NCBI RefSeq assembly: GCF_000421105.1
Contig: NZ_ATWF01000001.1
Location: 716,930 to 780,929, forward strand
Source: Limisalsivibrio acetivorans
GTDB lineage: Bacteria; Chrysiogenota; Deferribacteres; Deferribacterales; Geovibrionaceae
DNA: 64,000 nucleotides
Direction of reading: 5' to 3'
Shown here: positions 8,412-25,493 of the stretch, piece by piece
Position numbering within the stretch: position 1 is the stretch's first letter
Layout of the letters: each line of letters starts with the position of its first letter
Program-made: the position numbers and the translations under genes
The notes under the pieces: model-generated
What the model saw: the letters and a program-made list of their open reading frames with translations, nothing else
Database searches by the model: none
Told to the model about the DNA's origin: nothing

Positions 8412-8990
8412 TCAGTTTCCGAGAAGTTTCCCCATATCCTCTTCGGTATTTATATTCCCAAGAACCCTTGTGCCACCTTCGAAGCGGGCGAAATAGTCAT
8501 CCCCAAGCCAGCAGACGTTCATATCCTTTAGTGCCTGAAACATGCGGAAGTTCCCATCATTAAAAAAACGTCTAAGTACACCGAGTGCCGAAGGGGCATA
8601 AACACCGTGGAGAGGATGCACCTTCCCCTCAACATCGGGGATAACCGCATCGTACCCTTCGATATACTCAAACATCCCTTCGGCGGTGAAGCCGTTTACC
8701 ATAGGGGAGTCCGCAGAAACTATGAAAACAGGCTCCGAAACGTTCTCAAGGGCTGTTATAACCCCCGTCATGGGGCACTGCTGGGCATTGCCGTCCAGTA
8801 TGCGCCCCTCCACAGGGATACCGCTGTATTTCTCGATATCCTTGGCGACTATATAGGTTCTGAAACCTGATTGAACCAGATTATCCGCCGTTGTTCCTAT
8901 TACTGTGGAACCTCTGAACGGTGCCAGTGTTTTATCCGAACCAAAGCGCCGGCTCATGCCGCCGGCAAGTATCATCGCTTTATGTCTCAT
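8412..8990 (-). CDS. mobA: Molybdenum cofactor guanylyltransferase MobA
   Basis: This 192-residue protein carries the nucleotidyltransferase signature LAGGMSRRFGSDK at the N-terminus, SADSP metal/nucleotide site, HPLHGVY and the terminal NINTEED motif of MobA. It attaches GMP to molybdopterin to form the bis-MGD cofactor of DMSO-reductase-family enzymes. The psrA product about 8 kb downstream belongs to that family, so this is a plausible supplier. I chose the ATG at 8990 because the residues before it in the frame are not conserved. No strong Shine-Dalgarno is visible. It is divergent from the sensor kinase gene. Confidence 0.88.
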   Translation of the reverse strand: MRHKAMILAGGMSRRFGSDKTLAPFRGSTVIGTTADNLVQSGFRTYIVAKDIEKYSGIPVEGRILDGNAQQCPMTGVITALENVSEPVFIVSADSPMVNGFTAEGMFEYIEGYDAVIPDVEGKVHPLHGVYAPSALGVLRRFFNDGNFRMFQALKDMNVCWLGDDYFARFEGGTRVLGNINTEEDMGKLLGN

Positions 8991-9000
8991 ACATAAAGAG

Positions 9001-9035
9001 ATAACACCGCACACGCTCAACCGCAACGGTGTTAT
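9001..9035. promoter_or_regulatory. Inverted repeat in the mobA/sensor-kinase divergent region
   Basis: The perfect 9-bp arms ATAACACCG and CGGTGTTAT are separated by 17 bases between divergently transcribed genes. The position rules out a terminator for either gene and suggests a regulator site. No known consensus was recognised. Confidence 0.35.
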
Positions 9036-9081
9036 TGCAATTTGCTGTGAAAAGACTAAAATTCATTACAGCGGAGGCGCA

Positions 9082-10344: not shown

Positions 10345-11648
10345 TCAACAGAATACTCATTGTGGATGACGAAGAGAACCACAGGCTGATGCTTAAGCTC
10401 CATCTAAAGGACAGGGGCTATGAAATCGAAGAGGCGGTTAACGGCGCCGATGCGCTCACCAAACTGGGGGATACACTCCCCGATCTTATCTTGCTGGACA
10501 TGAAGATGGACATCATGGACGGGCTAACCTTCCTGAACCATCTGAGCCGCAAAGGGATACGTATCCCCGTTATTATGATAACAGCCTTCTCCAGCGTTAA
10601 AACAGCTGTGGAAGCGATGAAGCTGGGCGCTGAGGACTACATGACCAAACCGGTGGATATCGACTCACTACTTGAGAATATCGAGCGGATCTCCGGTTCT
10701 GTACAGGCGGAGGGGATCCCCTATACCGAGGATTACGAGTTCGGTGGTGTTTATTCAGCAGACGGTCTTGGGAGCATCATAGAACAGCTAAAGATGGTGG
10801 CACCGCTGGATGCAACAGTTCTAATATTAGGCGAATCGGGAACGGGTAAAGAGCTGATAGCACGCTCTATACATGATAACTCACCCAGAAAGGACGGCAA
10901 CTTCGTTGCTGTAAACTGTGCGGCATTATCGGAAAACCTCATAGAGAGCGAGCTCTTCGGTCACATGAAGGGTTCGTTCACAGGAGCCTCTGCGAATAAG
11001 GAGGGGCGGTTTGAGACTGCGGATAACGGAACCATATTTCTGGATGAAATAGGCGAACTCCCCCAACAGGTTCAGGCGAAGCTTCTACGTGTTCTGCAGG
11101 AGCGGACCTTCGAGCGTGTGGGTGGAACAAAAACTCTGAAAACCAATGCAAGGATAATCGCGGCGACCAATAAGGATCTTAAAACCATCTCACAGAAAGG
11201 TGAATTCAGGGAGGATCTTTATTTCAGACTCTCCGTCTTCCCCGTGGAGCTTCCTCCGCTCAGGGAGAGGACGCAGGAGATCGAGCCCTTAGTCAAGTTC
11301 TTCATCGAGAAATACTCAGAACGTTTCGGCAAGCTAATCAAAGGTGCGGATAAAAGCTATATAGACAAACTTAAAGGCTACAGCTTTCCGGGGAATATCA
11401 GGGAGTTGGAAAATATTGTAGAGCGGAGCATCATCCTTTCCAAATCTGAGAAACTGGGAACCGAGACGCTACCAGACTTCAAGGGATCCCACAAGGGTGT
11501 AAGCTCCAGTTTGGATATGAAATCAAACGAGCGTGAGCTTATCGTAAAGGCCCTTGAGAAAACAGAAGGGAACAAGACAAGGGCCGCAGAGATCCTTGGA
11601 ATATCACGCAGAACACTCCACTCCAAACTTAAGGAGTACGATATCTAA
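10341..11648 (+). CDS. NtrC-family sigma-54-dependent response regulator
   Basis: This 435-residue protein consists of a receiver (VDDEENH; phosphoacceptor in LLDMKMDIMDG; MTKPVD), a central AAA+ domain (Walker A GESGTGKE, GSFTGA sigma-54 loop, Walker B TIFLDEIGEL, GNIREL) and a C-terminal Fis-type helix-turn-helix (NKTRAAEILGISRRTLHSKLKEY). The sigma-54 contact loop reads GSFTGA instead of the common GAFTGA. It is coupled to the kinase by a 4-base overlap. I found no convincing -24/-12 promoter (TGGCAC-N5-TTGC) in the window, so its targets are unknown. Confidence 0.93.
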   Translation: MINRILIVDDEENHRLMLKLHLKDRGYEIEEAVNGADALTKLGDTLPDLILLDMKMDIMDGLTFLNHLSRKGIRIPVIMITAFSSVKTAVEAMKLGAEDYMTKPVDIDSLLENIERISGSVQAEGIPYTEDYEFGGVYSADGLGSIIEQLKMVAPLDATVLILGESGTGKELIARSIHDNSPRKDGNFVAVNCAALSENLIESELFGHMKGSFTGASANKEGRFETADNGTIFLDEIGELPQQVQAKLLRVLQERTFERVGGTKTLKTNARIIAATNKDLKTISQKGEFREDLYFRLSVFPVELPPLRERTQEIEPLVKFFIEKYSERFGKLIKGADKSYIDKLKGYSFPGNIRELENIVERSIILSKSEKLGTETLPDFKGSHKGVSSSLDMKSNERELIVKALEKTEGNKTRAAEILGISRRTLHSKLKEYDI

Positions 11649-11808: not shown

Positions 11809-11877
11809 GACAGCCTCCTTTTCCATACAATCGTCCGTCCTTGGTTTATGTTTACAATATACATCTTCTGGACTAGA

Positions 11878-11927: not shown

Positions 11928-13361
11928 ATGGACAGAAAGGAAGGGAAATACCTCTACGAAGAGATACAGGATATAATTCTGGAGCTTGTCAAGAAGGGTG
12001 AGCTCAAGGCGGGTGAGAAGGTGCCCTCTCTAAGGAGTATGTCTAAAAAGCTTAATACAAGCGTTACGACTGTAATGAAGGCATATATGGAGCTTGAGCG
12101 TAAAGGGTTTCTGGAATCACGCCCGAAGTCGGGCTACTTCCTTAAGGATGCAGAGGTTAAGACACTTCCACTCCCCGATGCCACAACACCAATCCCCGAG
12201 CCGAACCCTGTGAGCAAGTTTGACCTCGTTCTACAGCTGTACTACTCCATGGGGAGCCGTGACAGCGTATGCCTGAATGTGGCGGAGCCCCATTTCGAGC
12301 TTGTCCCCTCCGACGAGCTTGCAAGGATCATGAAAAAAGCCATATCATCAACACCTAACCACAATGCATACGAATTCATGGGAGGCCAGCCGGAGCTGAA
12401 AAGACAGATCGCCTACCATATGCTCAGCTATAACACACGGGTACAGCCGGACAGGATGATGATAACAAACGGCTCCTCCGAGGCTCTATTCATAGCACTC
12501 ACTATCCTCGCTCGCCCCGGCGATTCTGTTATAGTCGAATCCCCCTGCTTCTTCGGCTACCTCAATACACTCCACGCCCTCGGCATATACGCCCTTGAGA
12601 TACCCACACACCCCGACAAGGGGATGGATCTTGATGCGCTGGAGCAGTCACTGAACAGATACGATGTGAAGGCCTGCATAACCCAGACAAACTTCAACAA
12701 TCCACTTGGATACAGCATCCCGCCGGAGAACCGTGACCGAATAGTCGAGATGTGCAGCAAAAGCGGTGTGCCCATAATAGAAGAGGACATATACGGCGAC
12801 CTCCCCCACGATGGTAAACGCCCTGACACCCTCCTCTCAAGGGACTACGACAACGTTATTTACATATCATCGTTTTCAAAAACCCTAGCACCTGGCTACA
12901 GGGTGGGATGGCTGTATTCCGAACGGTACTACACACCTATATTCCGCTACAAGACATCCACAACAGTGGATACCGTCCGCCCTACCCAGCTTGCCATTGC
13001 GGAGTTTATGGCCTCCGGCAAGTACGCAAGACACCTTGAGAAGTTCAGAAACGTATGCGCATCAAACGTTTCTCTTTTCAGCATGGCTATCTCAAAATAC
13101 TTCCCCGAAGGAACAAGAATAACACGCCCCAAGGGTGGATTCATACTCTGGGTGGAGCTCCCGAAAGGGGTAGACACCCTTAATATCTACCGCAGAGCCG
13201 CCCACGAACGCATACATATTGCTCCTGGTACGATATTCTCATCACAGGACAGGTACTCAAACTGTATGCGGCTGAATTGTGCAGTTCCGTGGAATGAGAG
13301 GACGGAGAGCGCCCTCAAAAGGCTAGGCGAACTTGGAAAGGCTGAAATAGCTGGAAAGTAG
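11928..13361 (+). CDS. MocR-family transcriptional regulator (GntR HTH plus PLP aminotransferase fold)
   Basis: This 477-residue protein has an N-terminal winged helix (residues about 8-75: YEEIQDIILELVKKGELKAG, PSLRSMSKKLNTSVTTVMKAY) and a class I aminotransferase-like domain (TNGSSEALFIA, TNFNNPLGYSIP, EEDIYGDL, PLP-lysine in SSFSKTLAPGYRVGW, and a conserved C-terminal arginine region at NCMRLNCAVP). Members sense PLP or amino-acid adducts, or regulate vitamin B6, amino-acid transport and similar genes. The target is not obvious: no pdx or transporter gene is adjacent. A GGAG site precedes the ATG. A strong bidirectional terminator follows. Confidence 0.92.
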   Translation: MDRKEGKYLYEEIQDIILELVKKGELKAGEKVPSLRSMSKKLNTSVTTVMKAYMELERKGFLESRPKSGYFLKDAEVKTLPLPDATTPIPEPNPVSKFDLVLQLYYSMGSRDSVCLNVAEPHFELVPSDELARIMKKAISSTPNHNAYEFMGGQPELKRQIAYHMLSYNTRVQPDRMMITNGSSEALFIALTILARPGDSVIVESPCFFGYLNTLHALGIYALEIPTHPDKGMDLDALEQSLNRYDVKACITQTNFNNPLGYSIPPENRDRIVEMCSKSGVPIIEEDIYGDLPHDGKRPDTLLSRDYDNVIYISSFSKTLAPGYRVGWLYSERYYTPIFRYKTSTTVDTVRPTQLAIAEFMASGKYARHLEKFRNVCASNVSLFSMAISKYFPEGTRITRPKGGFILWVELPKGVDTLNIYRRAAHERIHIAPGTIFSSQDRYSNCMRLNCAVPWNERTESALKRLGELGKAEIAGK

Positions 13362-13538: not shown

Positions 13539-14729
13539 TTACTGAACGGTGCACTGACCGGAGTCGAAGCTGATCTGAGCGTCAAGGAAGTATACTCTTT
13601 CCATGGGAATGCCGCAGTCTTCAACGAGGCCGTAGTACATCTCACCAGCTCTACCGCCGGATGCGCAGTGAAGAACAAGGATTCCGCTATCGGGAAGCTG
13701 GCTCTTAACCTTCTCACAGCCGTTATCTTCGTAGATCTGGTTTACGTGAACGTTCTTAGAACCTTCAAGGTGACCTGACTGGTATTCCTGAGCGGAACGT
13801 ACATCGATGATATGGATGTTGTCGGGTCTGCTTGCGGGGTCGATAAGAGTTCTGAAGTAGTCCTTAGTGATAACACCCTGCTCGCCAGTTGTGGGAACAG
13901 CAGCATCGCCGGAACCGCCTGCAGCCTTCTTAACAGCAGCCTTGTCCATGGGTCCGCCCATCTTCTTCCACTCGGGAAGTCCGCCTGCGTATACAACAAC
14001 CTTCTTGTATCCGAGCTTGAGGAGGTCCTTAGCTACATTGTGGGACTTAACACAGTGGTATCCGCCGCAGAAGGGTACAAGAAGCTTGTTCTTGTCAGCG
14101 GGGAGCTGGTCCTTCATCTTGTCGAAATGAGTGTCGGGGATATTGATGGAACCGGGGATAGTGCTCTGCTTGAACTTTCTGGAAGGTCTTGCATCTATGA
14201 AGATAGCCTCGTCCTTTGTCATAAGCTTCTTAGCATATTCAAAGGAGATCTCATCATAGGAACCGGACTTCTTCCATACGGGCATACCGTCAAGGTAGAT
14301 CTTGATGTTGGTGTAGCCCTTGTCACGAAGCATATTAGCATCATGAAGTGACTTGATGCAGTTAACGCCGCCGCAGTAGGTAACTATGTAGTCATCTTTT
14401 GCAACTTTGTGGTCTGCAAGTGTTCCATAGTACTTCTCAAACTGAGTGTCGGGGATGAGAAGAGCTGTGGGGATGTGTGACTGGTTGTACTTTCTCTCGG
14501 GTCTAGCATCGATGAGAGTACCCCTTGATTTGTTGTAAACACCGTTGCCGACGATCTTCTTAACCTCATCGGTATCAACCAGCTCAAATCCGGCCTCTTC
14601 GATCTGCTCTGCAACGCTCTTGCCTTTAGCTCCCTCTTCGGGGCCAGCTGCAGGCTTCTGACCGCAGCCGATAACTGCCATAGAAGCCACAAGAACAAGT
14701 ACTACCATAAGTCTGCTAATTACACGCAT
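13539..14729 (-). CDS. Triple-rhodanese lipoprotein, probable sulfane-sulfur carrier
   Basis: This 396-residue protein has a signal peptide ending in a lipobox (AVIGCGQ), so it is a lipoprotein, probably facing the periplasm. Three rhodanese domains follow. The first two have active-site loops YCGGVNCIKS and FCGGYHCVKS, each with a second Cys five residues after the first; the third has the canonical CX4R form HCASGGRA. Rhodaneses bind persulfide on Cys. Wolinella Sud, a periplasmic rhodanese, delivers polysulfide sulfur to PsrABC, so the location just downstream of psrABC suggests the same job. Start chosen at 14729 because GGAGGT precedes it. It is flanked by terminators, so it is probably its own transcript. 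Confidence 0.88.
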   Translation of the reverse strand: MRVISRLMVVLVLVASMAVIGCGQKPAAGPEEGAKGKSVAEQIEEAGFELVDTDEVKKIVGNGVYNKSRGTLIDARPERKYNQSHIPTALLIPDTQFEKYYGTLADHKVAKDDYIVTYCGGVNCIKSLHDANMLRDKGYTNIKIYLDGMPVWKKSGSYDEISFEYAKKLMTKDEAIFIDARPSRKFKQSTIPGSINIPDTHFDKMKDQLPADKNKLLVPFCGGYHCVKSHNVAKDLLKLGYKKVVVYAGGLPEWKKMGGPMDKAAVKKAAGGSGDAAVPTTGEQGVITKDYFRTLIDPASRPDNIHIIDVRSAQEYQSGHLEGSKNVHVNQIYEDNGCEKVKSQLPDSGILVLHCASGGRAGEMYYGLVEDCGIPMERVYFLDAQISFDSGQCTVQ

Positions 14730-14741
14730 ACATACCTCCAT

Positions 14742-15147
14742 TTTTGTTTCGGGCTGACATGCCCGATACTTTTATAACAATATTTTATTCAAATAACCTG
14801 AATTTTTAAAATGGTCCTTGAATAAATCTTTATATCTCCCATACATATACATATAGGTATATTTGTATTTTCTAATATACCATATTTCTTATATATGTTT
14901 CTGCGCAATATCTTTATACCATGGTTATATTATCTTATTTTATACTTTTTTACAATTTTAAATTTGAATAACAAAGCATTTTTTTATAACTTTTTTAATC
15001 TCCATAAAGAAACAAATCTGTATATATATAAATGACTAATGGACTATATTTATTCTATTCTTCATTCCTATAAGTTGTGTAGTGTTACTATTTTTTCACC
15101 TATCATAAGATCGTTTCTGTAAGTTTTGTAAAGACACGTTGATCAAA
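14742..15147. other. Gene-free, very A/T-rich intergenic region
   Basis: About 400 bases with no plausible gene on either strand. It contains many TATA/ATAT runs and an inverted repeat GGTATAT-N12-ATATACC at 14856-14881. It is the only place for the promoter of the rhodanese lipoprotein gene, which is transcribed leftwards after the psrC terminator. Confidence 0.6.
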
Positions 15148-15178
15148 TGAAAAAAGGCCTCCCGAAGGAGGCCTTTTG
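15148..15178 (-). terminator. Terminator of the psrABC operon
   Basis: AAAAGGCCTCC, loop TTCG, GGAGGCC, then TTTTTTTCA on the minus strand, just after psrC. Confidence 0.92.
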
Positions 15179-15200
15179 ATTACTCATAATTAATTTCCGT

Positions 15201-16412
15201 TTAGTGGTGGTCCTTAGTCTCAAGGTCAAGAAACTTCTCAGCAGCGAAGTAAAGCAGGAAGAACACTCCAAAACCGAGGGCAAAGATGAGCCACTCAGAA
15301 ACGGAGGGGCTGTATGCAAGAAGCCCCATGGCATTAGTCTCCACACCGGAACCGGGAAGCCCTTCCCTCATGGGGGGAAGCTGACCGGCTACTACATAAT
15401 TGTAGCGGGTGAAGAAAAGGCCAATAAGGAAAACAAAACCTGCCAAAGCAAGGGTTTTGGGGTTTCCTTTAGCAAACACGATAAGGACAAGGGGTATGAT
15501 GATTGCAAGCCCCATCTCGCCTATCCAGAAACCTGCAGCAAGCTGACCCTTGATAAGGGAGAGTGCTGAAAGGTAAGCGTCGCCGGGCATGTTGAATATG
15601 GATGTAATCATCTTCCAGAGGTAGAGGAATATCATAACACCGATACCGCCGCCCATAAGCTTGCCGAGGGAAGCCATGGAGGGCTGGAGACGCGAGGGTA
15701 CATTGAACTTATATACAATGTTGTGGATAAGTATAAGCAGTGCCGCACCGCCTGTTATACCGGAAACCACGAGGAAGGTGGAGAAGTGGATTCCATGGAA
15801 CCAGGGGCGTGCGTTGAGTGAACCGAAAACAAATCCGAGGTTGCTTGTGGCAAGCACACCTACGAGGAGTGCAAGGAAGCCGGCAACAGCGGCGAGTTTG
15901 TGGTCCGCCTTGGTCTGGTTGGGCTTGAAGATAAGGAAAAGCTCAACGGCGAGGATAACAAGCTCAACACCGTAGAACATACCCATCCAGAAGATAGGAG
16001 CTTTGAAGTTGGGAGTGATCATCATGTAGATCATCTTCAACGGGTTTCCGAGCTCCATAAGGATCTGTGTGAATCCTGCAAGAAGTACAATCGTAGCGAG
16101 AACCACGATCCTTCTGCTTATCATCGCGTATTTTTCAAAACCGAAGGCATGTCCGAGTCCGCCGATGAAAGCGATTCCAGTGGAGGTAATCACGAAATAG
16201 GCGTATGTGGAGATAAGCAGCCCCCAGGAGACCTGCCTTGTTACGTTGTACATTTCCGCATGGCCATTTACGAAAACCATGATTGCTGTTATTCCGCCCA
16301 CTGCACAAAGTGCAAGCCCCAAGAGTATAAAGGGGATGGCGGGTATGTCCTTGTTATAGGTAATCAAGGACTTGAGATATGACTCTTTATGAGTATCTGC
16401 TGCGTGTGCCAT
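15201..16412 (-). CDS. psrC: PsrC/NrfD-type membrane quinol-oxidising subunit
   Basis: This 403-residue integral membrane protein has about nine or ten hydrophobic helices, and its NrfD/PsrC (HybB-like) family features are visible in SWGLLISTYAYFVITSTGIAF and FGSLNARPWFHGIHFSTF. Such subunits sit in the inner membrane, exchange electrons with menaquinol and pass them to the iron-sulfur subunit. The third gene of an operon with the molybdoenzyme and ferredoxin subunits (spacing 11 bases) supports this role. The GGAGG site ten bases upstream fixes the start. The direction of electron flow (sulfur reduction versus oxidation) cannot be decided from sequence. Confidence 0.9.
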   Translation of the reverse strand: MAHAADTHKESYLKSLITYNKDIPAIPFILLGLALCAVGGITAIMVFVNGHAEMYNVTRQVSWGLLISTYAYFVITSTGIAFIGGLGHAFGFEKYAMISRRIVVLATIVLLAGFTQILMELGNPLKMIYMMITPNFKAPIFWMGMFYGVELVILAVELFLIFKPNQTKADHKLAAVAGFLALLVGVLATSNLGFVFGSLNARPWFHGIHFSTFLVVSGITGGAALLILIHNIVYKFNVPSRLQPSMASLGKLMGGGIGVMIFLYLWKMITSIFNMPGDAYLSALSLIKGQLAAGFWIGEMGLAIIIPLVLIVFAKGNPKTLALAGFVFLIGLFFTRYNYVVAGQLPPMREGLPGSGVETNAMGLLAYSPSVSEWLIFALGFGVFFLLYFAAEKFLDLETKDHH

Positions 16413-16423
16413 TAGATTACCTC

Positions 16424-16978
16424 CTATTTAATGTAGAACAGCCGGGGGTTAGTATTCTTTTCCGGCTTGAGCTGATAGGTGTAGTTGTCGCCAAGGAGCT
16501 TGCTTGCGTCACTTTCGGGATCATTGAGGTCGCCGAATACCCTTACCTTTGTGGGGCAGGTTTCAACACATGCGGGTTCTCTTCCTTCGGGGAGCCTGTG
16601 GTAGCAGAACGTACACTTATCGATGGCATGATGTGATTCGTTTTCGTATCTCGCATCATAGGGGCACGCAGTGATACAGGCCTTGCAGAGGATACATTTG
16701 TCGTAGTCCACAAGGACAACGCCCTCTTCCGTCTTGTAGGTAGCCTTGGTGGGGCAGACACTCTGACAGGGTGTATTCTCGCAGTGCTGACACTGTGAGG
16801 GCTGAAACTCAAGGCTGAGGTTGGGGTAAGCACCCTGAACCTCAAGCTGGGTAACCCATATCCTGTAATCGTCATCACCGGGGTGAATAACGTTCTCGAA
16901 TTTGCAGGCCACGGTACAGGCCTTGCAGTTTATGCATTTCCCGGTATCCAGGACAATGCCGTATTTTTTAGTACTCAT
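16424..16978 (-). CDS. psrB: PsrB-type four-cluster ferredoxin subunit
   Basis: This 184-residue protein contains four [4Fe-4S] cysteine groups: CINCKACTVAC, CQHCENTPCQSVCP, CILCKACITACP and CTFCYHRLP with CVETCP. This is the DmsB/PsrB/NrfC pattern: it wires electrons between the membrane quinol subunit and the molybdenum subunit. No signal peptide is present, as expected for a subunit co-exported with its Tat partner. It is 18 bases downstream of psrA and 11 before psrC, and GGGAGG precedes the ATG. Confidence 0.94.
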   Translation of the reverse strand: MSTKKYGIVLDTGKCINCKACTVACKFENVIHPGDDDYRIWVTQLEVQGAYPNLSLEFQPSQCQHCENTPCQSVCPTKATYKTEEGVVLVDYDKCILCKACITACPYDARYENESHHAIDKCTFCYHRLPEGREPACVETCPTKVRVFGDLNDPESDASKLLGDNYTYQLKPEKNTNPRLFYIK

Positions 16979-16996
16979 CTCTATCCTGCCTCCCTA

Positions 16997-19315
16997 TTAT
17001 GCCTTTGTGATGGTTACGAAGGTTTCGTGCATAGCAGAGTTACCGGAGATCGGCTCTATGTAGTCCTCAAGGATAGCCGCCTGTGAAGCGCCCACGTTGT
17101 AAACGAGGCTGAGGCCCTTGGAGATACGGCCGAAACCGTGCACATAGTATACGCAGTCAGGCCTGATCTTTTCTGTAACTTCGGCCTTAACCTTCTGCTC
17201 GCCCACGCTGCTCTTAACGATGACATAGTCGCCGTCGGTAATATTGAGCTTGCGTGCTTCCTGGCTGTTTATCCAGAGTGTGTTCTCCTTCTGGATCTCC
17301 CAGAGGAACTCGTTGTTCTGTGTTCCTGTGTGGGTGTTCCAGCCGTGACGTCCGAGAACGAATCTGAACTGACCTTCCTTAGGCTGTCTGGGTCTTCTGT
17401 ATACGGGAAGGGGATCAAGACCTTCCTTCTCATACTTAACGTTGTACAGCTCGATCTTGCCTGTTCTGGTCTTGTATCTGGCGCCGGGCTTTCTCATCTT
17501 GCCGTATTTCGCCTTGTCAGTAAGGTAGAAGACGCCTTCTTTCATCATCTGCTCGTAGGCACCGGAGTGCTCGCTAAGCTGATATTTGATGTATTCTGTC
17601 ATGGGCTTGCGAAGTATTCCGTTCACAACTCCGTCCATGAAGTATTCCATATCCTCTTCGTAGGTGTCGTCCCAGAGGGAGTCTATCTTAAGCATCTCCT
17701 CAACGATTCCACCTGTTATCTCGAACATGGACTTGGTCTTGAATACGGGCTCAACACATGGCTGGCGGAAAGTGGCTATGGGCCATATGCCGCTGAGGCT
17801 GTGTACAGGGTCCCATCTCTCAAGGTAAGTGGACTCAGGAATAACGAGGTCTGCGTAGTAGGCAGTGTCAGACATCTGTATATCCACCATAGCTATGAAG
17901 TCCATCTTATCAAGCATCTCAAGGGTCTTGGCTCTGTTGGGAACAGCCTCAATAAGGTTCTGCTTGTATACAATGAGAGCGGTTACGGGATAGGGCTCCC
18001 CCTTAAGAACTGCCTCTCTGAAGCGGAGCCAGCTGCCGTCCTTCTCGCTGAGGTATGTACAGGAATCCATGGGAAGACCGGATGCTGTCCTCTCATCTTC
18101 GGGCATCTTGTTGTCGAAGTTGCCGTAGGATTCTATATCAAGCCTGCTCTGTACAAGGTCGTAGAAGGGGAACATGATGTCGTGCTTCTCGAGGGGTACA
18201 GAGGATTTGGGAACGATACCGCCGGGGGTGTCCCAGCAGCCGCATATAGCCGTTGCAATGGCACAGGCTCTGCGGAAGTATACGTCGTTTACATACCAGG
18301 AGGTTCTTCTGCCGGGGTAAACAACGGAACGGGGAGCGTACTTTGCAAACTCTCTCGCAGTCCAGCGGATCTCCTCGGCGGAAATCTCACATTCCTTCTC
18401 CGCCCACTCGGGAGTGTACTGTTTGACATGCTCCACAAGCTCTGCAAATCCATGGGTGTATTCATCAACGAAGGCTTTGTCGTAAAGCTCTTCTTCAATG
18501 ATTACATTTATCATACCAAGAACAAACGCAAGATCCGTTCCAGGTTTTACAGGATACCACTTGTCCGCCTTTGCGGCTGTGGCTGTAAAACGGGGATCGA
18601 GGACAACAAGCTGCTGACCCTTGGGCTTGTTCTTCTGGAAATCGATGGTGTCGGGTGTTACAAAGGCCTCCGCCCTGTTTGCACCGGGCATTACAACGAA
18701 CATAGCGTTGAGCAGGTCTGCATCGGGGTAAACACCGTAAACAGACGACCATCCCTGAATGGTGGACGAGAGACAGAGGGTGGGGTGCCTTACTGTATTA
18801 AGGGAACCGTAGGACTGAACAAGGAAGTGGAACATCCCTTCCTGAAAACCTTCTGATGAAGCAAAGGCAACGCTTGAGCGGTTCTCATACTTCTTCTTGT
18901 TCTCTGCAAATTTCTCGGCAATTATTTTGAAGGCTTCCTCGTAGGAAATCTTCTTCCACTTGCCCTCCCCTCTCTTGCCGACGCGAAGAAGGGGTTCCTT
19001 AAGTCTTTCGGGGTTGTAGGGCTCTTCCGCACCCGCATTTCCTCTCGCACAAAGCATTGCGCGGCTCTTGAAGAACTTGGGGTTGGGGTTGAGCTTCTTG
19101 ATACGACCGTTTACAACGTGTGCGTAAAACCCGCACTTGTTTACACACATCTCGCAGGAAGAGGCAACGTGCTTCTCACCCACTTCGCCGGTGGGAGCGG
19201 CTTCCTGATGTCCACCGCTGGCGACGGCTTTAAAGGTAGACAGATTACTGGCAACCATGGTTGCTGCAAGTGCGCTACCGGATGCCGCCAGAAATTTCCT
19301 ACGGCTGAGCTTCAT
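16997..19315 (-). CDS. psrA: PsrA-like molybdopterin oxidoreductase (polysulfide/thiosulfate reductase family)
   Basis: This 772-residue catalytic subunit has a Tat signal (SRRKFLAASGSALAA), an N-terminal [4Fe-4S] motif (CEMCVNKCGFYAHV ... LCARGN), bis-MGD binding regions and a C-terminal domain (LGRHGWNTHTGTQNN). The likely Mo ligand is the Cys in HPTLCLSST. The closest types I recognise are PsrA, PhsA and related sulfur-compound reductases; arsenate or tetrathionate reductases are less likely but not excluded. Expected location is periplasmic, anchored by PsrC. GGAGG precedes the ATG. A TorD-like chaperone gene lies 3 kb upstream. Two copies of a 15-bp motif lie 44-80 bases upstream of the start codon. 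Confidence 0.88.
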   Translation of the reverse strand: MKLSRRKFLAASGSALAATMVASNLSTFKAVASGGHQEAAPTGEVGEKHVASSCEMCVNKCGFYAHVVNGRIKKLNPNPKFFKSRAMLCARGNAGAEEPYNPERLKEPLLRVGKRGEGKWKKISYEEAFKIIAEKFAENKKKYENRSSVAFASSEGFQEGMFHFLVQSYGSLNTVRHPTLCLSSTIQGWSSVYGVYPDADLLNAMFVVMPGANRAEAFVTPDTIDFQKNKPKGQQLVVLDPRFTATAAKADKWYPVKPGTDLAFVLGMINVIIEEELYDKAFVDEYTHGFAELVEHVKQYTPEWAEKECEISAEEIRWTAREFAKYAPRSVVYPGRRTSWYVNDVYFRRACAIATAICGCWDTPGGIVPKSSVPLEKHDIMFPFYDLVQSRLDIESYGNFDNKMPEDERTASGLPMDSCTYLSEKDGSWLRFREAVLKGEPYPVTALIVYKQNLIEAVPNRAKTLEMLDKMDFIAMVDIQMSDTAYYADLVIPESTYLERWDPVHSLSGIWPIATFRQPCVEPVFKTKSMFEITGGIVEEMLKIDSLWDDTYEEDMEYFMDGVVNGILRKPMTEYIKYQLSEHSGAYEQMMKEGVFYLTDKAKYGKMRKPGARYKTRTGKIELYNVKYEKEGLDPLPVYRRPRQPKEGQFRFVLGRHGWNTHTGTQNNEFLWEIQKENTLWINSQEARKLNITDGDYVIVKSSVGEQKVKAEVTEKIRPDCVYYVHGFGRISKGLSLVYNVGASQAAILEDYIEPISGNSAMHETFVTITKA

Positions 19316-19358
19316 AAAATAGACCTCCTACTTTATCAATACTACCATTAGTTTACAC

Positions 19359-19395
19359 TGTAGACACAATACACCTGTAATGTATACAGAATACA
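19359..19395 (-). promoter_or_regulatory. Two 15-bp direct repeats upstream of psrA
   Basis: TGTAGACACAATACA (19359-19373) and TGTATACAGAATACA (19381-19395), 22 bases apart (about two helical turns), lie 44-80 bases before psrA. A third copy lies upstream of torD. This is a probable activator or repressor site; the regulator is unknown. Confidence 0.5.
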
Positions 19396-19565
19396 ATATA
19401 CATTTTTTACTTCTTTAGCAAGAAAAATTACAAATATTTAAAACATAGTATTATAGTAGACATTAATGATTTTACATATGATTCTTTCTATATTGGCTGT
19501 ATCTATCTTTACAAGAGGGCTGGACGCTTTCAAACAACAGTTTACTTTAGCATAGCTGGATACAT

Positions 19566-19601
19566 AAAAAGCCGGGGCTTTTCAACCCCGGCTCATATTT
19601 T
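19566..19601 (-). terminator. Terminator after the porin gene
   Basis: GCCGGGG, seven-base loop, CCCCGGC, then TTTTTATG on the minus strand; A/T tracts on both sides. It insulates the psrA promoter from the porin transcript. Confidence 0.88.
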
Positions 19602-19608
19602 TTAGTTA

Positions 19609-21645
19609 TTAGAATGAGTAAGTGAAGGAGCCGTAGAACTTCTCCACCTTATCAACAACGGGCATCATCGCATGAAGTCCGTTCACATCGTTGATATCTG
19701 TGGGTGAACCCATGGGGTTACCGCTGCCGGTGTAGTCGTAGTCGAACCTCTGATAGCCAATGGTGGCGAAAAGACGGCTGCCTACAACGGGACGGTGGTA
19801 GTATACCTCGTACACACTACCGCGTGTGGCGAGCTTACTTGCTACTACGTCATCCTCTGCGCCGGTGAAGTTGATCCAGTTTTTGCTACCCTTGTTGTAT
19901 TCGAAGCCGAGGCGTCCGCCAACAACGGGGATATCAGGAGTCATAACACCAACCCAGATCATGTGTCCGGATTCGCTGTCGTCAGAACCGAGAAGCTGAT
20001 CCTGCTCCATAAACTGGAACATGGGGTTCTGAGACCTTCCGTCCGGATGGGTCTTACTCATGTTGTATGAAAGGAACCAGTCGAAGCCGAAGTTCTCACC
20101 CTGTGCGAGGAGTGCATGCATCTCGATGTCACCAATCTCGGAGGTGGGCTCGAACCTGGAAGCGTATCCGCCCCAGTTCGGGTTGAACTCGTACTCGTCG
20201 TAAGCACCGTCCATGTTATAATCTGTACCGGAAATGTAGTAGGGCATTGCTACAAGGCCTGTGAAACCATCGGTTACGCCGAAGCCTCTCGCATAATTGT
20301 ACCAGAACTTGTACTTCTCGTCGTCATAGAACTTAACGATGAGTCCGCCGAACTCAACATCATCTACGTTGGAGTAGGATGTGAGACCGTTGTTTGCGGA
20401 AAGTGCGTTTCCGGTTCCCCACTGACCTTCGAAGCCTTTACCGTAGCAGAACTTGATGAATGAACCGGGCACCCAGTAATCGAAATCGATACCGAGTGAG
20501 CCGCCATCGAAGTTCCACTGGATAATGGAAGCGAGTGGTGAACCGCCGAGTGTGGAGAACTCGTGGTTCTCATATCCGGGGCCGTAGGTTGAGGGTCTTC
20601 TACCGAGGGAGAAGTGCCAGCCTACGTTTCCGATGTGATTTTTGTAGACGAAGTATGCTCTTTCAACGTGGAGACTGTCGTCTGAGGGAACAGAGCCGGA
20701 GTTGCCATCGAGGTACATACTTTTGAATGTGCCGTCGAAGAACTTAACCTGGCTTGTGTCACCCCACGCCTTGTACATAACAAGACGGCCGGTGAAAGAA
20801 AGATTGCTGTTTACCTTGCTGTTCAGACGGAGCCTGAACTTGTTTGTGAACATGGAGCTGTTCTCTGTGTCGTATGATCTGGGCTCTACGCCTTTGAACA
20901 TAGACTTCATAACCTGAGCCTCACCGGCAGTAAGAGTTCTGTCGCTGAAGAGGTAAGAGAAGGCCATCATGTTCGCCATCTGCTGGGCCTGAGCAGCCTG
21001 CTCGGGATTGGACATATCAAGGCCGTTCATGGTGCCGACAGTTACAACGAAGTCCTGATAGTCGCTGTAGCCGTTCATGTTGGCATCCATCATCGCACCG
21101 GTCATGCCGGCGAAATCGACCATGTCATCCACCCAGTCGGACTCAACAAAGTCTGAAGGGTCTGTACCGGGGCCAACCTGTCCTACGAGAGCGCCGAAGT
21201 TCTGCTGGAACTCCTGAGCTTCGGGAGAGGTTCCCATAAGGTTGCTGTAGAGCATGCCGAAATCCTGACCATATTCGGCCATGAAAGCATCGTTCCACAT
21301 GTCGGGCTGACCGGTCATACCTGTTTGATCCCAGGGAGCATCTGCGCCGCCGCCTGCAACGAGAACATCTCTGAGCCAGAGGCCCATCATGTCGTTAGCG
21401 TATGCGGGAAGAGCCTGAACATCCTTGTAGCTTACTGAATCAAGCCTTGTTCTGAGCTCTGCCTTGATGTTAACCCTGTCCACAGCCGTGTGTCTTTCGT
21501 TTTTGGATACACGCCTGCTGATGCTGTCGATATCTTCCTGAAGCTCCGCGATCTCTTTCTTCAGCTCTTCGAGTGAAGGCTCGGCCGCAAATGCCGCAGT
21601 CGATGCAACAAGCACCGCCAGAATAGCAATTAGAAACTTTTTCAT
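19609..21645 (-). CDS. DUF3373-type outer-membrane porin
   Basis: This 678-residue protein has a signal peptide (MKKFLIAILAVLVASTAAFA) and a short coiled coil (EELKKEIAELQEDIDSIS), then a long beta-rich region with alternating patterns (FRLRLNSKVNSNLSFTGRLVMYKAW; NHIGNVGWHFSLGRRPSTYG) ending YGSFTYSF, a typical outer-membrane barrel C-terminus with terminal Phe. I recognise it as the DUF3373 porin-like family found in Deferribacteres and related anaerobes. A central insert is rich in Met/Ala/Gln (NPEQAAQAQQMANMMA). Its location between torD/cytochrome and psrABC suggests a pore for sulfur species, which is inference. ATG 21645 follows GGGGG. Confidence 0.82.
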   Translation of the reverse strand: MKKFLIAILAVLVASTAAFAAEPSLEELKKEIAELQEDIDSISRRVSKNERHTAVDRVNIKAELRTRLDSVSYKDVQALPAYANDMMGLWLRDVLVAGGGADAPWDQTGMTGQPDMWNDAFMAEYGQDFGMLYSNLMGTSPEAQEFQQNFGALVGQVGPGTDPSDFVESDWVDDMVDFAGMTGAMMDANMNGYSDYQDFVVTVGTMNGLDMSNPEQAAQAQQMANMMAFSYLFSDRTLTAGEAQVMKSMFKGVEPRSYDTENSSMFTNKFRLRLNSKVNSNLSFTGRLVMYKAWGDTSQVKFFDGTFKSMYLDGNSGSVPSDDSLHVERAYFVYKNHIGNVGWHFSLGRRPSTYGPGYENHEFSTLGGSPLASIIQWNFDGGSLGIDFDYWVPGSFIKFCYGKGFEGQWGTGNALSANNGLTSYSNVDDVEFGGLIVKFYDDEKYKFWYNYARGFGVTDGFTGLVAMPYYISGTDYNMDGAYDEYEFNPNWGGYASRFEPTSEIGDIEMHALLAQGENFGFDWFLSYNMSKTHPDGRSQNPMFQFMEQDQLLGSDDSESGHMIWVGVMTPDIPVVGGRLGFEYNKGSKNWINFTGAEDDVVASKLATRGSVYEVYYHRPVVGSRLFATIGYQRFDYDYTGSGNPMGSPTDINDVNGLHAMMPVVDKVEKFYGSFTYSF

Positions 21646-21673
21646 TAACAACCCCCGTTAATTAAATGAAAAT

Positions 21674-21703
21674 CAGGATGCCCCCTTTTGCGGGAGCATC
21701 CTG
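21674..21703. terminator. Hairpin between the CX3CH protein gene and the porin gene
   Basis: CAGGATGCCCCC, loop, GGGAGCATCCTG. On the minus strand the run after the stem is only ATTTTCATTT, so termination may be partial; it could instead act as an attenuator or stabiliser that sets different porin and chaperone levels. Confidence 0.6.
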
Positions 21704-21726
21704 TTAAGTGCAATTTTTTTTAAATT

Positions 21727-22059
21727 TTAGCCGCAAGTTTCGGGCTGGTCGCTGTCAAGGGCGTGGCCGTGAAGATACTCGAACATATCTGCCCAGTCGC
21801 TGTCTTTAAGCGCATCAACCTCAACGCCAGCGTGAGCTTCGTCGATCTCTGCATGAGCGTTATCGAAGAATCTCTTCCACTGAGCCTGAGTCTTGGAAAC
21901 GGGTGAAAGCTCAACTGCTTTACTACCGTCATGACAGGTAGTCCTGCAACTCTTTTTCCATGTTCTCTTACCCTTTCTTGCGTTTGCTGCGAAAGCAGTG
22001 GAAACTGCCATTGCAAGAAGCACTGCCACTACTACAGCTGTAAATGCCTTTCTTTTCAT
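21727..22059 (-). CDS. Small periplasmic protein with a CX3CH motif, putative cytochrome c
   Basis: This 110-residue protein has a signal peptide (RKAFTAVVVAVLLAMAVSTAFAA) and then KGKRTWKKSCRTTCHDG. The motif has three residues, not two, between the cysteines, confirmed codon by codon (TGC AGG ACT ACC TGT CAT). The overall layout (GKxxWKKxC..CHDG, WKRFFDN, LHGHALDS) is that of a short class I cytochrome c. If haem is attached, the CX3CH site is non-standard; if not, the protein may bind metal or form a disulfide. Terminal Cys in PETCG. The GGAGGTG site is strong. It follows the TorD gene by about 45 bases and probably shares its transcript. Confidence 0.75.
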   Translation of the reverse strand: MKRKAFTAVVVAVLLAMAVSTAFAANARKGKRTWKKSCRTTCHDGSKAVELSPVSKTQAQWKRFFDNAHAEIDEAHAGVEVDALKDSDWADMFEYLHGHALDSDQPETCG

Positions 22060-22105
22060 TAGAACACCTCCAATATTCCGGACTTTACGTCCGCTTTACC
22101 TATTT

Positions 22106-22792
22106 TTAATTAAATATAAGTTCTTCCAAAATGTTCTCTGTATCGTTCAGAAAACCTTTCAGAAGCATTGATGCCGTTTTATAGAATTCCGTCTCTGTTT
22201 CCGCGATAACCTTATCGGCAAAAGGGCCTGCGAAAACGGGGAAAAAATCCCTCGATACGCTCAGAAGTGTACTTAACGATCCAAGGCGGCAATCGCTGTT
22301 CTCTTCATCCGCAACCTTCTCGAGCACGAGGCCGAAAAACTCAAGCACAAGATAGACATGGTCCTCAAGCTCCTTAACGCTCTCATCACGCATGAAGCCT
22401 TCGGCCGCCATGATGTTCTTAAGACGAACCATATCATCACCCCAGAGAAGCTGTTCATCACCCATATACACAGAGGCATAGGGGGTGGCTTTAACGCCGC
22501 CGTAATCGTTGATGAAGAGCTTCACATACTCCGTCTCCATATCGATCTGCTTCCCGGGAACCAGCGCCCTGTCAGTGTATTCAGAAATGAACTCCTGGAA
22601 CTCGGGGGAGTATTTATCTATGGTTTCATAAACGGTATCCTCAGGATACCTGAATATAACCGAAAGGAACATGAACACGGATGAGAGGCTTTTAAGGCCT
22701 TCCTTATCGGGCTCCGCCTTAGAGAGAATCTCTCCGGCCTTAACCGCATCCTCTTCATTGAGAGCTGACTTGAACTCTGCCATGCTGCTCAT
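22106..22792 (-). CDS. TorD/DmsD-family molybdoenzyme chaperone
   Basis: This 228-residue, all-helical cytosolic protein has the TorD-family marks EYVKLFINDYGGVKATPYASVYMG and a C-terminal LEFFGLVLEKV helix. These chaperones bind the Tat signal of molybdoenzymes and hold them until cofactor is inserted. PsrA, the only Tat-dependent molybdoenzyme in the window, is the probable client. The gene starts a short operon with the CX3CH protein and porin. Two nearby ATGs are possible; I used the first. Confidence 0.88.
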   Translation of the reverse strand: MSSMAEFKSALNEEDAVKAGEILSKAEPDKEGLKSLSSVFMFLSVIFRYPEDTVYETIDKYSPEFQEFISEYTDRALVPGKQIDMETEYVKLFINDYGGVKATPYASVYMGDEQLLWGDDMVRLKNIMAAEGFMRDESVKELEDHVYLVLEFFGLVLEKVADEENSDCRLGSLSTLLSVSRDFFPVFAGPFADKVIAETETEFYKTASMLLKGFLNDTENILEELIFN

Positions 22793-22887
22793 AATTAAAC
22801 ATTCTCCGACATTACTGCCGCATTAAAAGAAATAAACTGGGTTCTTGACATATAAACATTACCTTCTGTCTGAACTGATTTCTAATC

Positions 22888-22938
22888 ACTATATCAACCT
22901 GCAACAAAATCGCAAGTATTTTTTGTATACAATATACA
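22888..22938 (-). promoter_or_regulatory. Promoter with upstream 15-bp motif for the torD operon
   Basis: On the minus strand, the 15-mer TGTATATTGTATACA (reverse complement of TGTATACAATATACA, 22924-22938) lies 8 bases before a candidate -35 TTGCGA (22910-22915), which is 16 bases from -10 TATAGT (22888-22893). The spacing fits an activator site just upstream of the -35. Confidence 0.5.
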
Positions 22939-23035
22939 GATTTTCATATTAAGTTGAATACCAATGAAATAGTGGATTAATAACAGTATTTTATTTTGAT
23001 TTTGACATATTATCTCGTTTGGACTTGAACAAAAG

Positions 23036-23062
23036 ATTAAAAAAGCCGGGCGAACCCGGCTC
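23036..23062 (-). terminator. Terminator after fccB
   Basis: AGCCGGG, loop TTCG, CCCGGCT, then TTTTTAATC on the minus strand, immediately after fccB. Confidence 0.92.
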
Positions 23063-23067
23063 TAAAT

Positions 23068-24369
23068 CTATGTCAGCATATCGGACCATATACTTAACGT
23101 CCAGTCCCTGGCGTGCTTGCCGAAGATCTCTCTGCGATCTGGTGAGAGACCTCCACCTGTTTTCATGATACGTTTTACTGAGGGGTCATAATCGTAAACT
23201 GCTGATACAAATATCGCTTCCTCTTCGTTTATGAGGCTGTAACACGTATTTGCAAGGCTCGGAGGTAGCTGTTCCTGCCCGTTAAGGGCATAAACAACTG
23301 CCAGTGCGCATGCTTTGCCCATGCTGTTTGCAACGAAGCCCGACTTCGGAACAGGGCCCACGGATCCCGCATGGGTAGAGTCGCCGATTACATGGACATC
23401 CTTATAAACCTCCGATTCGAAGTTATATGCATTCACCTTTGCCCAACGCTCCCCTTCGGGCACAAGCCCAGCCTTATATGCGAAATCTCCTGCCTTCATA
23501 GCGGGAATGATGTTGGCTACTCCCGCCTTAAACTCACCCTTCTCGGTTTGGAGAACCTTGTTCTTCCTGTCGATACCTTTGAGGGGCGCAAGGGTTATAT
23601 ATTCGATAACATCGCTGTAATAAGCATTCCAGCCGTCCATAAAGAGCTTACCCTTGGAAACTATCCCGTCATTGGGATCAAGAACGATGATCTTCGAGCC
23701 CGTTTTATGGTTCTTAAGATAGTTTGCTATGAGTGATATGCGCTCATAGGGTCCGGGGGGGCATCTGTAAGGCTTAGGCGGTACGGTGAGCACAACATTC
23801 TCGCCGTTCTTCATAGCCACCAGCTTATCCCGGAGGAGTTGTGTCTGGGGTCCGGCCTTATATGCATGGGGGAAATCGTCCATGGCAGAATCCTTCCACC
23901 CCTCTATCTGGTCATACATAAAGCTGACGCCGGGGGATACGATAAGCTTGTCGTACTCCACTTTTCCTGCATCCGTAACGATGATCTTATTGGCAGGCTC
24001 AAGCCCGAGAGCCTCTGTTTTAAGGAGCTTTATGCCGTTATTTGAAGCAAGGTCGTTGTAGCTGAATGTTATATCTGAGAGTGCCTTAAACCCGCCTATA
24101 ACCCAGTTGCTTGCGGGACATGAGACAAACTTGTCCAGTTTCTCTATCAATATAACCTCGATGGAAGGATCGGTGAGCTTACAGTACTTCGCAGCTGTTG
24201 TACCCCCCCAACCGGCTCCTAGTACAACAACACGCTTGCCCCCTTTGGGCATTATTATCTCTTTTTTCTTGGAGACGTTTACATCGACATTAACACATCC
24301 CGCCAGACCAACCGCACCAACGGCCGCAGCGGTTCCCTTCAGAAAAGTTCTTCTGCTTAATCTGCTCAT
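23068..24369 (-). CDS. fccB: Flavocytochrome c sulfide dehydrogenase, flavoprotein subunit
   Basis: This 433-residue protein has a Tat-type signal (SRRTFLKGTAAAVGAVGLAGC, which may also be a lipobox), an FAD-binding Rossmann motif (VVVLGAGWGGTTAAKY) and the FccB cysteine positions (VSCPASNWV, YRCPPGPYER, NTCYSLI), plus VIGDSTHAGSVGPVPKSGFVAN. It oxidises sulfide to sulfane sulfur or polysulfide in the periplasm and passes electrons to its cytochrome partner. The start overlaps the fccA stop (ATGA), indicating coupled translation. Some FccB relatives work in other redox couples, but the paired dihaem cytochrome supports the sulfide role. Confidence 0.9.
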   Translation of the reverse strand: MSRLSRRTFLKGTAAAVGAVGLAGCVNVDVNVSKKKEIIMPKGGKRVVVLGAGWGGTTAAKYCKLTDPSIEVILIEKLDKFVSCPASNWVIGGFKALSDITFSYNDLASNNGIKLLKTEALGLEPANKIIVTDAGKVEYDKLIVSPGVSFMYDQIEGWKDSAMDDFPHAYKAGPQTQLLRDKLVAMKNGENVVLTVPPKPYRCPPGPYERISLIANYLKNHKTGSKIIVLDPNDGIVSKGKLFMDGWNAYYSDVIEYITLAPLKGIDRKNKVLQTEKGEFKAGVANIIPAMKAGDFAYKAGLVPEGERWAKVNAYNFESEVYKDVHVIGDSTHAGSVGPVPKSGFVANSMGKACALAVVYALNGQEQLPPSLANTCYSLINEEEAIFVSAVYDYDPSVKRIMKTGGGLSPDRREIFGKHARDWTLSIWSDMLT

Positions 24370-24941
24370 TTGTTCCTCCCAAGTGCTGAATAATAGGCGG
24401 CAAGAGCCCTTATCTCGATCTCACTTACTTCTTGCATAACGCTCATCTCTTCGGATTTGATCTCGCCGTTCTTATAACGCTTAAGCACCTCACGGAGGTA
24501 ACCCGGATTCTGGCCTGCAATCCTCGGTATCTCATCAACACCCGTGCCGTCACTCATGTGACAGTCTGCACACCCGGTATCCTCTATCAGCTCAACGGAA
24601 GCATCAACATTGAATTCCTCAAGCTTACTGTCGGAGCTGACCCACTCTTTCCCGGCGTACCATGCGCTTATGGAATCGAGCTGTTCATCGGTGTAGCCGG
24701 AGGCCATAAGGTTCATCTCAACGCTTTCGGGTCTGGCTCCCTGCTTGTAGCCAGCCATGGTTTCCTCAAGATAAACCTCGTTCTGTCCACCGATGGTGGG
24801 TATATAGTCACCGGGTGAAGCTCCGTTTGTTCCGTGGCATCCTGCACAGGTCTTCGCCATCCTCTCCCCTGTCTCATCCGCAAAGGCGGGCAGAGCGAAT
24901 GCGGCAGCAAGGGCCAGCACAGCAATAATGATCTTTTTCAT
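24366..24941 (-). CDS. fccA: Dihaem cytochrome c4-like subunit of flavocytochrome c
   Basis: This 191-residue protein has a signal peptide (KKIIIAVLALAAAFALPAFA) and two haem sites: CAGCHGTNGASPGDYIPTIGGQ near residue 32 and CADCHMSDGTGVDEIPRIAGQ near residue 120. This internal duplication is typical of FccA/cytochrome c4 proteins. Methionines downstream of each site can serve as axial ligands. It should accept electrons from FccB. GGAGG precedes the ATG. It is the second gene of the SH3-lipoprotein, fccA, fccB transcript. Confidence 0.92.
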   Translation of the reverse strand: MKKIIIAVLALAAAFALPAFADETGERMAKTCAGCHGTNGASPGDYIPTIGGQNEVYLEETMAGYKQGARPESVEMNLMASGYTDEQLDSISAWYAGKEWVSSDSKLEEFNVDASVELIEDTGCADCHMSDGTGVDEIPRIAGQNPGYLREVLKRYKNGEIKSEEMSVMQEVSEIEIRALAAYYSALGRNK

Positions 24942-24974
24942 CCAAGCCTCCTGAAATAATAATGTTTAATAACT

Positions 24975-25493
24975 CTATTTCCCCAAGGGGAGAACCACAC
25001 GGCCGTCCATATAGCCCTCAAGCTCCCCTGTTATAACCTTAATCCACATCTCAGCGCCGGGTATCCCCTCAATAACACTAACCGTCTCACCCCGCTCTAG
25101 CTCCAGCTTCCGTTCGGAGGAAGCATCGGGAGAGGAGTATAGATAGGCCTTCTCTGCTGCAACATAGGAATCAACCCCTTCAGCCATTGCCTTCAGCCTG
25201 TTGCGCACATTGGACAACGCCTTCTGGTACTCGCCGAGAAGGGCAAGTATCCCTTTATAGTTCTCTTTGATCTCCTTATTATCGTTCCTCAGAACTGAGA
25301 TCTCCTTCTCAAGCTCCTCCACCTTGGAGGCCAGATCCTTAATCCTGTCTGAATTCTCCGCAGTGGAAGCACCATAGGGAGTTCCGCCGAAACTGCTGAG
25401 GATCTTCTCCCCCTTCTCCGGCTCCGGTTCCTTTCCTGCACATGCACTCAGAATCATCATGATTGACATTAAAATAAACGCTTTTTTCACCAT
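24975..25493 (-). CDS. Coiled-coil SH3-like lipoprotein
   Basis: This 172-residue protein has a lipoprotein signal (MMILSACAG), a long coiled coil at residues about 50-105 (RIKDLASKVEELEKEISVLR) and a C-terminal bacterial SH3-like fold (AEKAYLYSSPDASSERKLELERGETVSV ... WIKVITGELEGYMDGRVV). Such proteins are attached to the envelope and bind peptidoglycan or partner proteins. It is the first gene of the fcc transcript, 34 bases from fccA. Its role in sulfide oxidation is unknown. Confidence 0.8.
   Translation of the reverse strand: MVKKAFILMSIMMILSACAGKEPEPEKGEKILSSFGGTPYGASTAENSDRIKDLASKVEELEKEISVLRNDNKEIKENYKGILALLGEYQKALSNVRNRLKAMAEGVDSYVAAEKAYLYSSPDASSERKLELERGETVSVIEGIPGAEMWIKVITGELEGYMDGRVVLPLGK

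Follow-up and report, generated by a model that had tools for sequence, protein, structure and literature searches.

Introduction

In Wolinella, the periplasmic rhodanese Sud, a small single-domain protein, carries polysulfide sulfur to the polysulfide reductase Psr. The PsrABC complexes of Wolinella and Thermus (structure 2VPW) and PhsABC share their architecture, Tat signal and cysteine ligand with the PsrABC described here, which is encoded in a stretch of 64,000 nucleotides from Limisalsivibrio acetivorans (hereafter the window; contig NZ_ATWF01000001.1, positions 716,930 to 780,929), in an island that also holds a triple-rhodanese lipoprotein (RHO3), a porin, a TorD-type chaperone and the flavocytochrome c sulfide dehydrogenase (FCSD) FccAB. 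Where the Wolinella/Thermus-type system has Sud, the PsrABC of the window is linked to the triple rhodanese. A second relative is the srrEABCDF operon of Bacillus selenitireducens MLS10, for which rhodanese proteins of 38 and 45 kDa are described (Wells 2019, via PMC12481199). A porin and a rhodanese have already been proposed to act in sulfur respiration in Deferribacter and Deferrivibrio (PMC6896113, PMC11896075), which belong to the same phylum as the window's genome and for which the functional proposal is the same; in D. autotrophicus, however, these genes lie near an operon annotated as Ttr and away from psr, whereas those of the window are contiguous with psrABC.

Neither the enzymes nor the idea of a porin acting with a rhodanese is new. 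New, as far as our analysis shows, are the family-wide island, the tight co-occurrence of RHO3 and PsrA, the link to SrrF, and an operator that ties one psrABC copy to a regulon of the tricarboxylic acid (TCA) cycle and respiration. The operator bears on a published puzzle, namely that nearly all Deferribacterota carry psrABC while few have been reported to reduce sulfur (PMC6896113). We consider it probable, on balance, that the island encodes a unit of the PsrA/PhsA/SrrA kind for the respiratory reduction of chalcogens, next to a sulfide dehydrogenase.

Conservation of the Island

The ten genes occupy positions 13539-25493 of the window, all on the minus strand, in the order SH3 lipoprotein, FccA, FccB; TorD, CX3CH protein; porin; PsrA, PsrB, PsrC; and RHO3. 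Pfam and NCBIfam agree with the families named in the original prediction, and the strong terminators that it described correspond to four terminator-like hairpins followed by T runs on the same strand, an intrinsic one 3' of fccB (23042..23063) and others at 21674..21703, 19569..19594 and 15152..15177, which close four transcripts, or about five counting RHO3.

For comparison with relatives, families are labelled f1 to f10 and genera g1 to g4, and L numbers denote individual loci. In family f1 (12 genomes; its genus g4 includes Seleniivibrio), TorD, porin, PsrABC and RHO3 are contiguous in 11 genomes, and the gene order that was to be compared among relatives is thus conserved within the family. 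FccAB joins the island in nine of the 12, one of the nine being inverted with psrABC elsewhere. The outgroup f10, probably Chrysiogenaceae, has TorD, PsrA, PsrB and RHO3 together with a single-domain rhodanese, and no match to PsrC. That the reductive half (TorD, porin, PsrABC and RHO3) is one respiratory unit is well supported.

Identity of PsrABC

The catalytic molybdopterin subunit PsrA (16997..19315, minus strand) carries a Tat signal and is followed by the 4Fe-4S subunit PsrB, which has no signal peptide (16424..16978; Pfam/NCBIfam), and the NrfD-type membrane subunit PsrC (15201..16412; PF03916, 85.4 bits). PsrA gets 512 bits from the PhsA model, short of the equivalog cut-off of 694 bits, and 196 and 92 bits from the ArrA and TtrA models. 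Its best solved relative is the Thermus enzyme (2vpw, E=1.8e-119), to which Cys181 of PsrA aligns at Cys173, the molybdenum ligand. The traits of the PsrA/PhsA/SrrA clade are all present: a cysteine as molybdenum ligand, the Tat signal, an N-terminal 4Fe-4S motif and the NrfD-type anchor. Identity to a plasmid-borne PhsA is about 30%.

In a 33-row tree, a quick tree with long branches in which the deep branching order is unsure, PsrA falls in a clade with enzymes from Deferribacterales, f10, Desulfuromonadales, a deltaproteobacterial metagenome-assembled genome (MAG) and Arcobacter. The sister of this clade consists of Thermus Psr and a paralogue from the same genome as the window, and ArrA- and TtrA-like rows lie outside. 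The tree was also read for a grouping with arsenate or tetrathionate reductases, which would have spoken against the original prediction of a Psr-type reductase, and no such grouping appears. Profile scores and tree therefore place PsrA among the Psr, Phs and Srr enzymes, three types that sequence does not tell apart, and it is neither an ArrA nor a TtrA.

The Triple Rhodanese and Its Partners

RHO3 (13539..14729, minus strand) comprises three rhodanese domains and is SrrF-like; its start is probably at 14729, after a GGAGG. Among 20 orthologues the lipobox Cys26 and the loop cysteines C123/C128, C225/C230 and C359 are invariant, and the three active loops read CGGxxC, CxGxxC and CxxGxR. A selenocysteine in RHO3 was considered and rejected, since the in-frame TGA of one orthologue (G027, L116:9429-10660) replaces a conserved Trp and points to a point change or a sequencing error.

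Across 51 genomes, RHO3 is found in all 24 that have PsrA and in three of the 27 that do not. FccB accompanies it less closely, occurring in 18 RHO3-bearing genomes and in 12 others (f6, f7) that lack both RHO3 and PsrA, while PsrA and RHO3 occur without an FccB match in seven genomes (five of f3/f5 and two of f10). Because its presence follows PsrA and not FccB, RHO3 is the partner of PsrA, with FccAB optional. Together with the conserved linkage, this agrees with the earlier proposal of a rhodanese serving the reductase. Its likening to Wolinella Sud does not hold up as well, as RHO3 has three rhodanese domains and a lipobox where Sud has a single domain, and SrrF is closer in size and operon position.

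Loci outside the phylum were sampled among the matches listed and give no frequencies. At least nine triple-rhodanese loci there have PsrA adjoining, and a PsrABC-(TorD)-RHO3 arrangement is found, again among the matches listed, in Campylobacterota, Desulfuromonadales, Clostridia and Bacillaceae. Most other loci among the matches listed (within L232-L273; Rhodocyclales, Thiobacillus, Desulfobacterota and others) show a recurrent cluster in which a YeeE/TsuA-type transporter, a cytochrome b561, a small cytochrome c and an octaheme cytochrome of the tetrathionate-reductase family accompany RHO3; possibly this cluster is an uncharacterised sulfur (or selenium) system. SoxYZ also stands beside RHO3 in at least one sampled locus, and FccAB in at least three (L252, L256 and L258, in Zoogloea and a Rhodocyclaceae MAG). 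Since RHO3 elsewhere adjoins octaheme cytochromes, YeeE-type transporters, SoxYZ and FccAB, sulfur is favoured as its usual cargo, with the caveat that YedE-type transporters are linked to selenium too. Because it recurs with several sulfur (or selenium) machineries across phyla, the triple rhodanese is a promising candidate for a sulfane carrier of general use in the periplasm.

Comparison With Respiratory Selenite Reductase

The likeness to Srr raises the alternative that the island encodes a respiratory reductase for selenite, in which SrrABC with the chaperone SrrD and the rhodanese SrrF would reduce selenite to Se0, the rhodanese binding selenium. All the corresponding parts have counterparts in the window: a catalytic subunit of the PsrA/PhsA clade, an Fe-S subunit, a membrane anchor, a TorD-type chaperone and a rhodanese of about 45 kDa, so that the A-B-C-D-F gene set, rhodanese included, is complete, although spread over separate transcripts. 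In the Bacillaceae Tepidibacillus (L267) and Salipaludibacillus (L270) the order is a double rhodanese, PsrA, PsrB, PsrC, TorD and a triple rhodanese, which equals the published srrEABCDF in gene composition and puts an RHO3-type protein at the position matching SrrF; Tepidibacillus respires selenite (PMC12016495). Seleniivibrio holds the island (L227) and, according to the title of a reference in PMC11944866, respires selenate, and S0 is reportedly not reduced by most Deferribacterota that carry psr (PMC6896113).

The window differs from Srr, however, in having no gene in the island for the first, double rhodanese (the 38-kDa SrrE), in the separate transcript of TorD, in the added porin, CX3CH protein and FccAB, and in the subclade of PsrA. 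In the tree, where MLS10 SrrA is represented by SrrA-like Bacillota loci as a proxy, the window PsrA stands apart from these proteins and groups with f10, Desulfuromonadales and Arcobacter enzymes, with Thermus Psr as sister. RHO3 is found elsewhere, among the matches listed, with SoxYZ, FccAB, octaheme cytochromes and TsuA/YeeE-family transporters, and co-regulation with the TCA cycle (see below) would be hard to square with selenite, which is scarce in most habitats. We therefore regard a selenite reductase as unlikely but as a serious contender; polysulfide would be the likelier substrate of PsrABC judging from these comparisons.

A Shared Operator and a Candidate Regulator

The palindrome TGTATAYTGTATACA lies upstream of both psrA and torD in the window, as TGTATATTGTATTCTGTATACA at 19381..19402 and TGTATATTGTATACA at 22917..22938 (both minus strand, pattern matches). 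The three g3 genomes all have it at the corresponding positions. We read the regulon from matches with at most one mismatch, with the reversed pattern as control, and counted 22 sites in the window's genome (both strands counted) against none for the control. Families f1-f5 have 10-22 sites per genome (13 in one genome that is 73% complete), and f6-f9 are near the control. In the window's genome, sites precede sdhC, the monomeric idh, acnB, the citrate synthase gene gltA, nuoA, atpF, cydA, the gene for the small subunit of a NiFe hydrogenase and a GntR-FCD gene, all of them confirmed by Pfam, as well as a second atp operon.

The operator also distinguishes between psrABC copies. It precedes 18 of 19 copy-1 psrA genes and none of the ten copy-2 genes (f1, f3-f5), and so marks one copy as part of the TCA/respiratory regulon and leaves the other outside it; the single psrA of f2, placed in the copy-2 branch, has it about 57 bp upstream. 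At torD it is present in g1, g3 and g2 (7/7 loci) and absent in g4. In g2 and g4, where fccA and the CX3CH-family gene diverge, it lies between the two, and most genomes there also have it upstream of RHO3. From these sites, other transcripts of the island would belong to the regulon in g2 and g4, unlike in the window's genome. In the window's genome the operator links the psrABC and torD transcripts, and those of fccAB and RHO3 lack it.

Of 24 f1-f5 genomes, 23, among them that of the window, carry a tandem pair of GntR-FCD genes; the one without it (G016) is 88% complete. The pair is absent from f6, f7 and f9, and f8 and f10 hold single, more distant relatives. All 23 loci have the operator no more than about 170 bp ahead of their first gene. 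Sites therefore occur before the regulator's own gene and before functionally coherent targets, and co-occur with the regulator. The tandem pair is likely the autoregulated reader of TGTATAYTGTATACA, and would be a candidate global regulator of the TCA cycle and respiration in Deferribacterales; no paper on such a regulon was found in the literature searched. In the window's genome the two genes lie at G000:C2:119457-120950 (L306, L220).

A different candidate is the MocR-type regulator (GntR plus aminotransferase; 11928..13361, plus strand) that adjoins the island, which would make the palindrome a MocR site and MocR the main regulator of the island. In g1 the MocR gene is indeed preceded by a one-mismatch match, TGTATATTGTAAAC(A) (11850..11863, minus strand, in the window). 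This match is absent in g3, MocR adjoins the island in g1 and g3 only, and the palindrome spans f1-f5, where it always stands upstream of the GntR-FCD pair. MocR was rejected as the reader of the palindrome, and its role as main regulator seems very unlikely. Three TAACAGA direct repeats precede the start of the MocR gene beside RHO3 and are conserved in g3, a possible autoregulatory site of MocR itself. The genome holds a second MocR-type regulator (L200, C1:1835011).

Proposed Mechanism

The observations on which the following mechanism builds are the identities of the genes, their synteny, the co-occurrence of RHO3 with PsrA, the conservation of the operator, and the co-occurrence and autoregulatory site of the regulator. 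TorD (22106..22792, minus strand; PF02613, 74.5 bits) would mature PsrA, which would be Tat-exported together with PsrB and dock on the menaquinol-oxidising NrfD subunit PsrC. The loop cysteines of RHO3, which is anchored in the membrane, may bind sulfane sulfur in persulfide form for transfer to PsrA, and substrate or product would cross the outer membrane through the DUF3373 porin (19609..21645, minus strand; 455.7 bits; start probably at 21645, by the ribosome-binding site). Through the GntR-FCD pair, psrABC and torD would be co-regulated with the TCA cycle, complex I, succinate dehydrogenase, ATP synthase, hydrogenase and cytochrome bd; binding of the site by the regulator, like the direction, the transfer of persulfide and the substrate of the porin, is inferred. 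As its transcript shares an operator with TCA-cycle, ATP-synthase and electron-transport genes, PsrABC is most likely a core respiratory enzyme, a menaquinol-dependent terminal reductase for sulfane sulfur that takes up the electrons released when acetate or H2 is oxidised. The operator would then predict which psrABC copy matters in acetate respiration and point to a single regulator. In Deferrivibrio, nitrate represses the NrfD/psr operons (PMC11896075), which speaks for sulfur respiration.

Several observations weigh against this proposal. Psr, RHO3 and FccAB are at separate loci in f2-f5, no operator was found at the fccAB or RHO3 transcripts in the window's genome, and the regulator was matched to the operator by autoregulatory position and co-occurrence only. 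In addition, S0 is reportedly not reduced by most Deferribacterota with psrABC (PMC6896113), which leaves room for another substrate.

Flavocytochrome c Sulfide Dehydrogenase

FccB (23068..24369, minus strand; FCSD_central and FCSD-flav_bind) carries a Tat signal and matches 5n1t with E=3.2e-90, the cysteines of RCPPGPYER and TCYSL being aligned. FccA (24366..24941, minus strand; Pfam) is a diheme cytochrome c (CAGCH, CADCH); in the Protein Data Bank it matches, among others, cytochrome c4 as well as 1fcd_C and 3vrd_A, the cytochrome subunits of FCSDs. FccAB thus has the flavoprotein domains, both redox cysteines and the c-type cytochrome partner of the FCSDs 1fcd, 3vrd and 5n1t, from which the window differs only in gene neighbourhood. 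The sulfide dehydrogenase of the original prediction is therefore genuine, and by its domains and motifs FccAB is an ordinary FCSD that probably oxidises sulfide and passes the electrons to cytochromes. Judged from its distribution, FccAB is an optional neighbour of the island and a separable module; it would convert sulfide to sulfane sulfur and deliver electrons to c-type cytochromes given an acceptor such as nitrate, or serve in sulfide detoxification.

The original prediction had instead joined both enzymes in one sulfane-sulfur cycle, with FccAB and PsrABC sharing RHO3 as carrier, and with the cell changing over between oxidising sulfide with nitrate and reducing sulfur. FccAB is contiguous with the island in most f1 genomes, RHO3 adjoins FccAB in Zoogloea and the Rhodocyclaceae MAG, a NapA-like gene is present in the window's genome, and in g2 and g4 the region between fccA and the CX3CH-family gene has the operator of psrA, as does RHO3 in most. 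Against this, a terminator sets the fccAB transcript apart, in the window's genome neither it nor RHO3 has the operator, and the two halves occur without each other in the f6, f7, f3/f5 and f10 genomes listed above. RHO3 follows PsrA and not FccB, and we find a joint cycle doubtful, preferring a reductive unit with FccAB as a separable module.

Sulfur disproportionation by PsrABC and FccAB, also suggested earlier, seems extremely improbable even though reductive and oxidative enzymes are both encoded. Dissimilatory sulfite reductase and a YedE-containing cluster, markers of disproportionators, were sought in the window's genome (G000; 2.97 Mb, 99.99% complete), and both DsrA and a YedE-type transporter are absent; as FCSD yields zero-valent sulfur only, no route to sulfate is seen. 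A further reading, in our view quite improbable, is a periplasmic sulfide/sulfane shuttle in one cell with RHO3 as the common persulfide carrier, in which sulfide made by PsrABC would reduce an external oxidant (Fe(III), S0), FccAB would recover electrons from returning sulfide, and the GntR-FCD pair would time the process with the TCA cycle.

Other Features of the Region

The first gene of the fccAB transcript (24975..25493, minus strand) encodes a 172-aa lipoprotein with the lipobox LSAC and an SH3_3 match of 23.6 bits, below the 27-bit cut-off; orthologues stand at the same place in two of three g3 genomes. The porin was also modelled, and the low-confidence structure (pLDDT 64) resembles OmpM1/OmpF-type barrels, which supports a beta-barrel as such.

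Downstream of torD lies an exported cytochrome-c-like protein of 110 aa (21727..22059, minus strand). The CX3CH motif noted earlier is there (CRTTCH), but the cytochrome match is weak (21.8 bits against a 27-bit cut-off), and its predicted structure (pLDDT 71.5, pTM 0.46) was unreliable and left uninterpreted. The small family to which it belongs (loci including L106, L107, L113, L116, L135, L136, L233, L235, L239 and L268) has CX2CH in L274 (L274:1139-1471) and CX3CH in the window, g3, L114, L127 and L130. The heme motif is missing from some members, namely g2/g4 copies beside fccA and Desulfobacterota copies beside RHO3; as a C-terminal Cys is kept throughout, heme may be dispensable.

At 8905-11648 of the window, a histidine kinase and an NtrC-type response regulator adjoin the island; they are kept beside MocR and RHO3 in g3.

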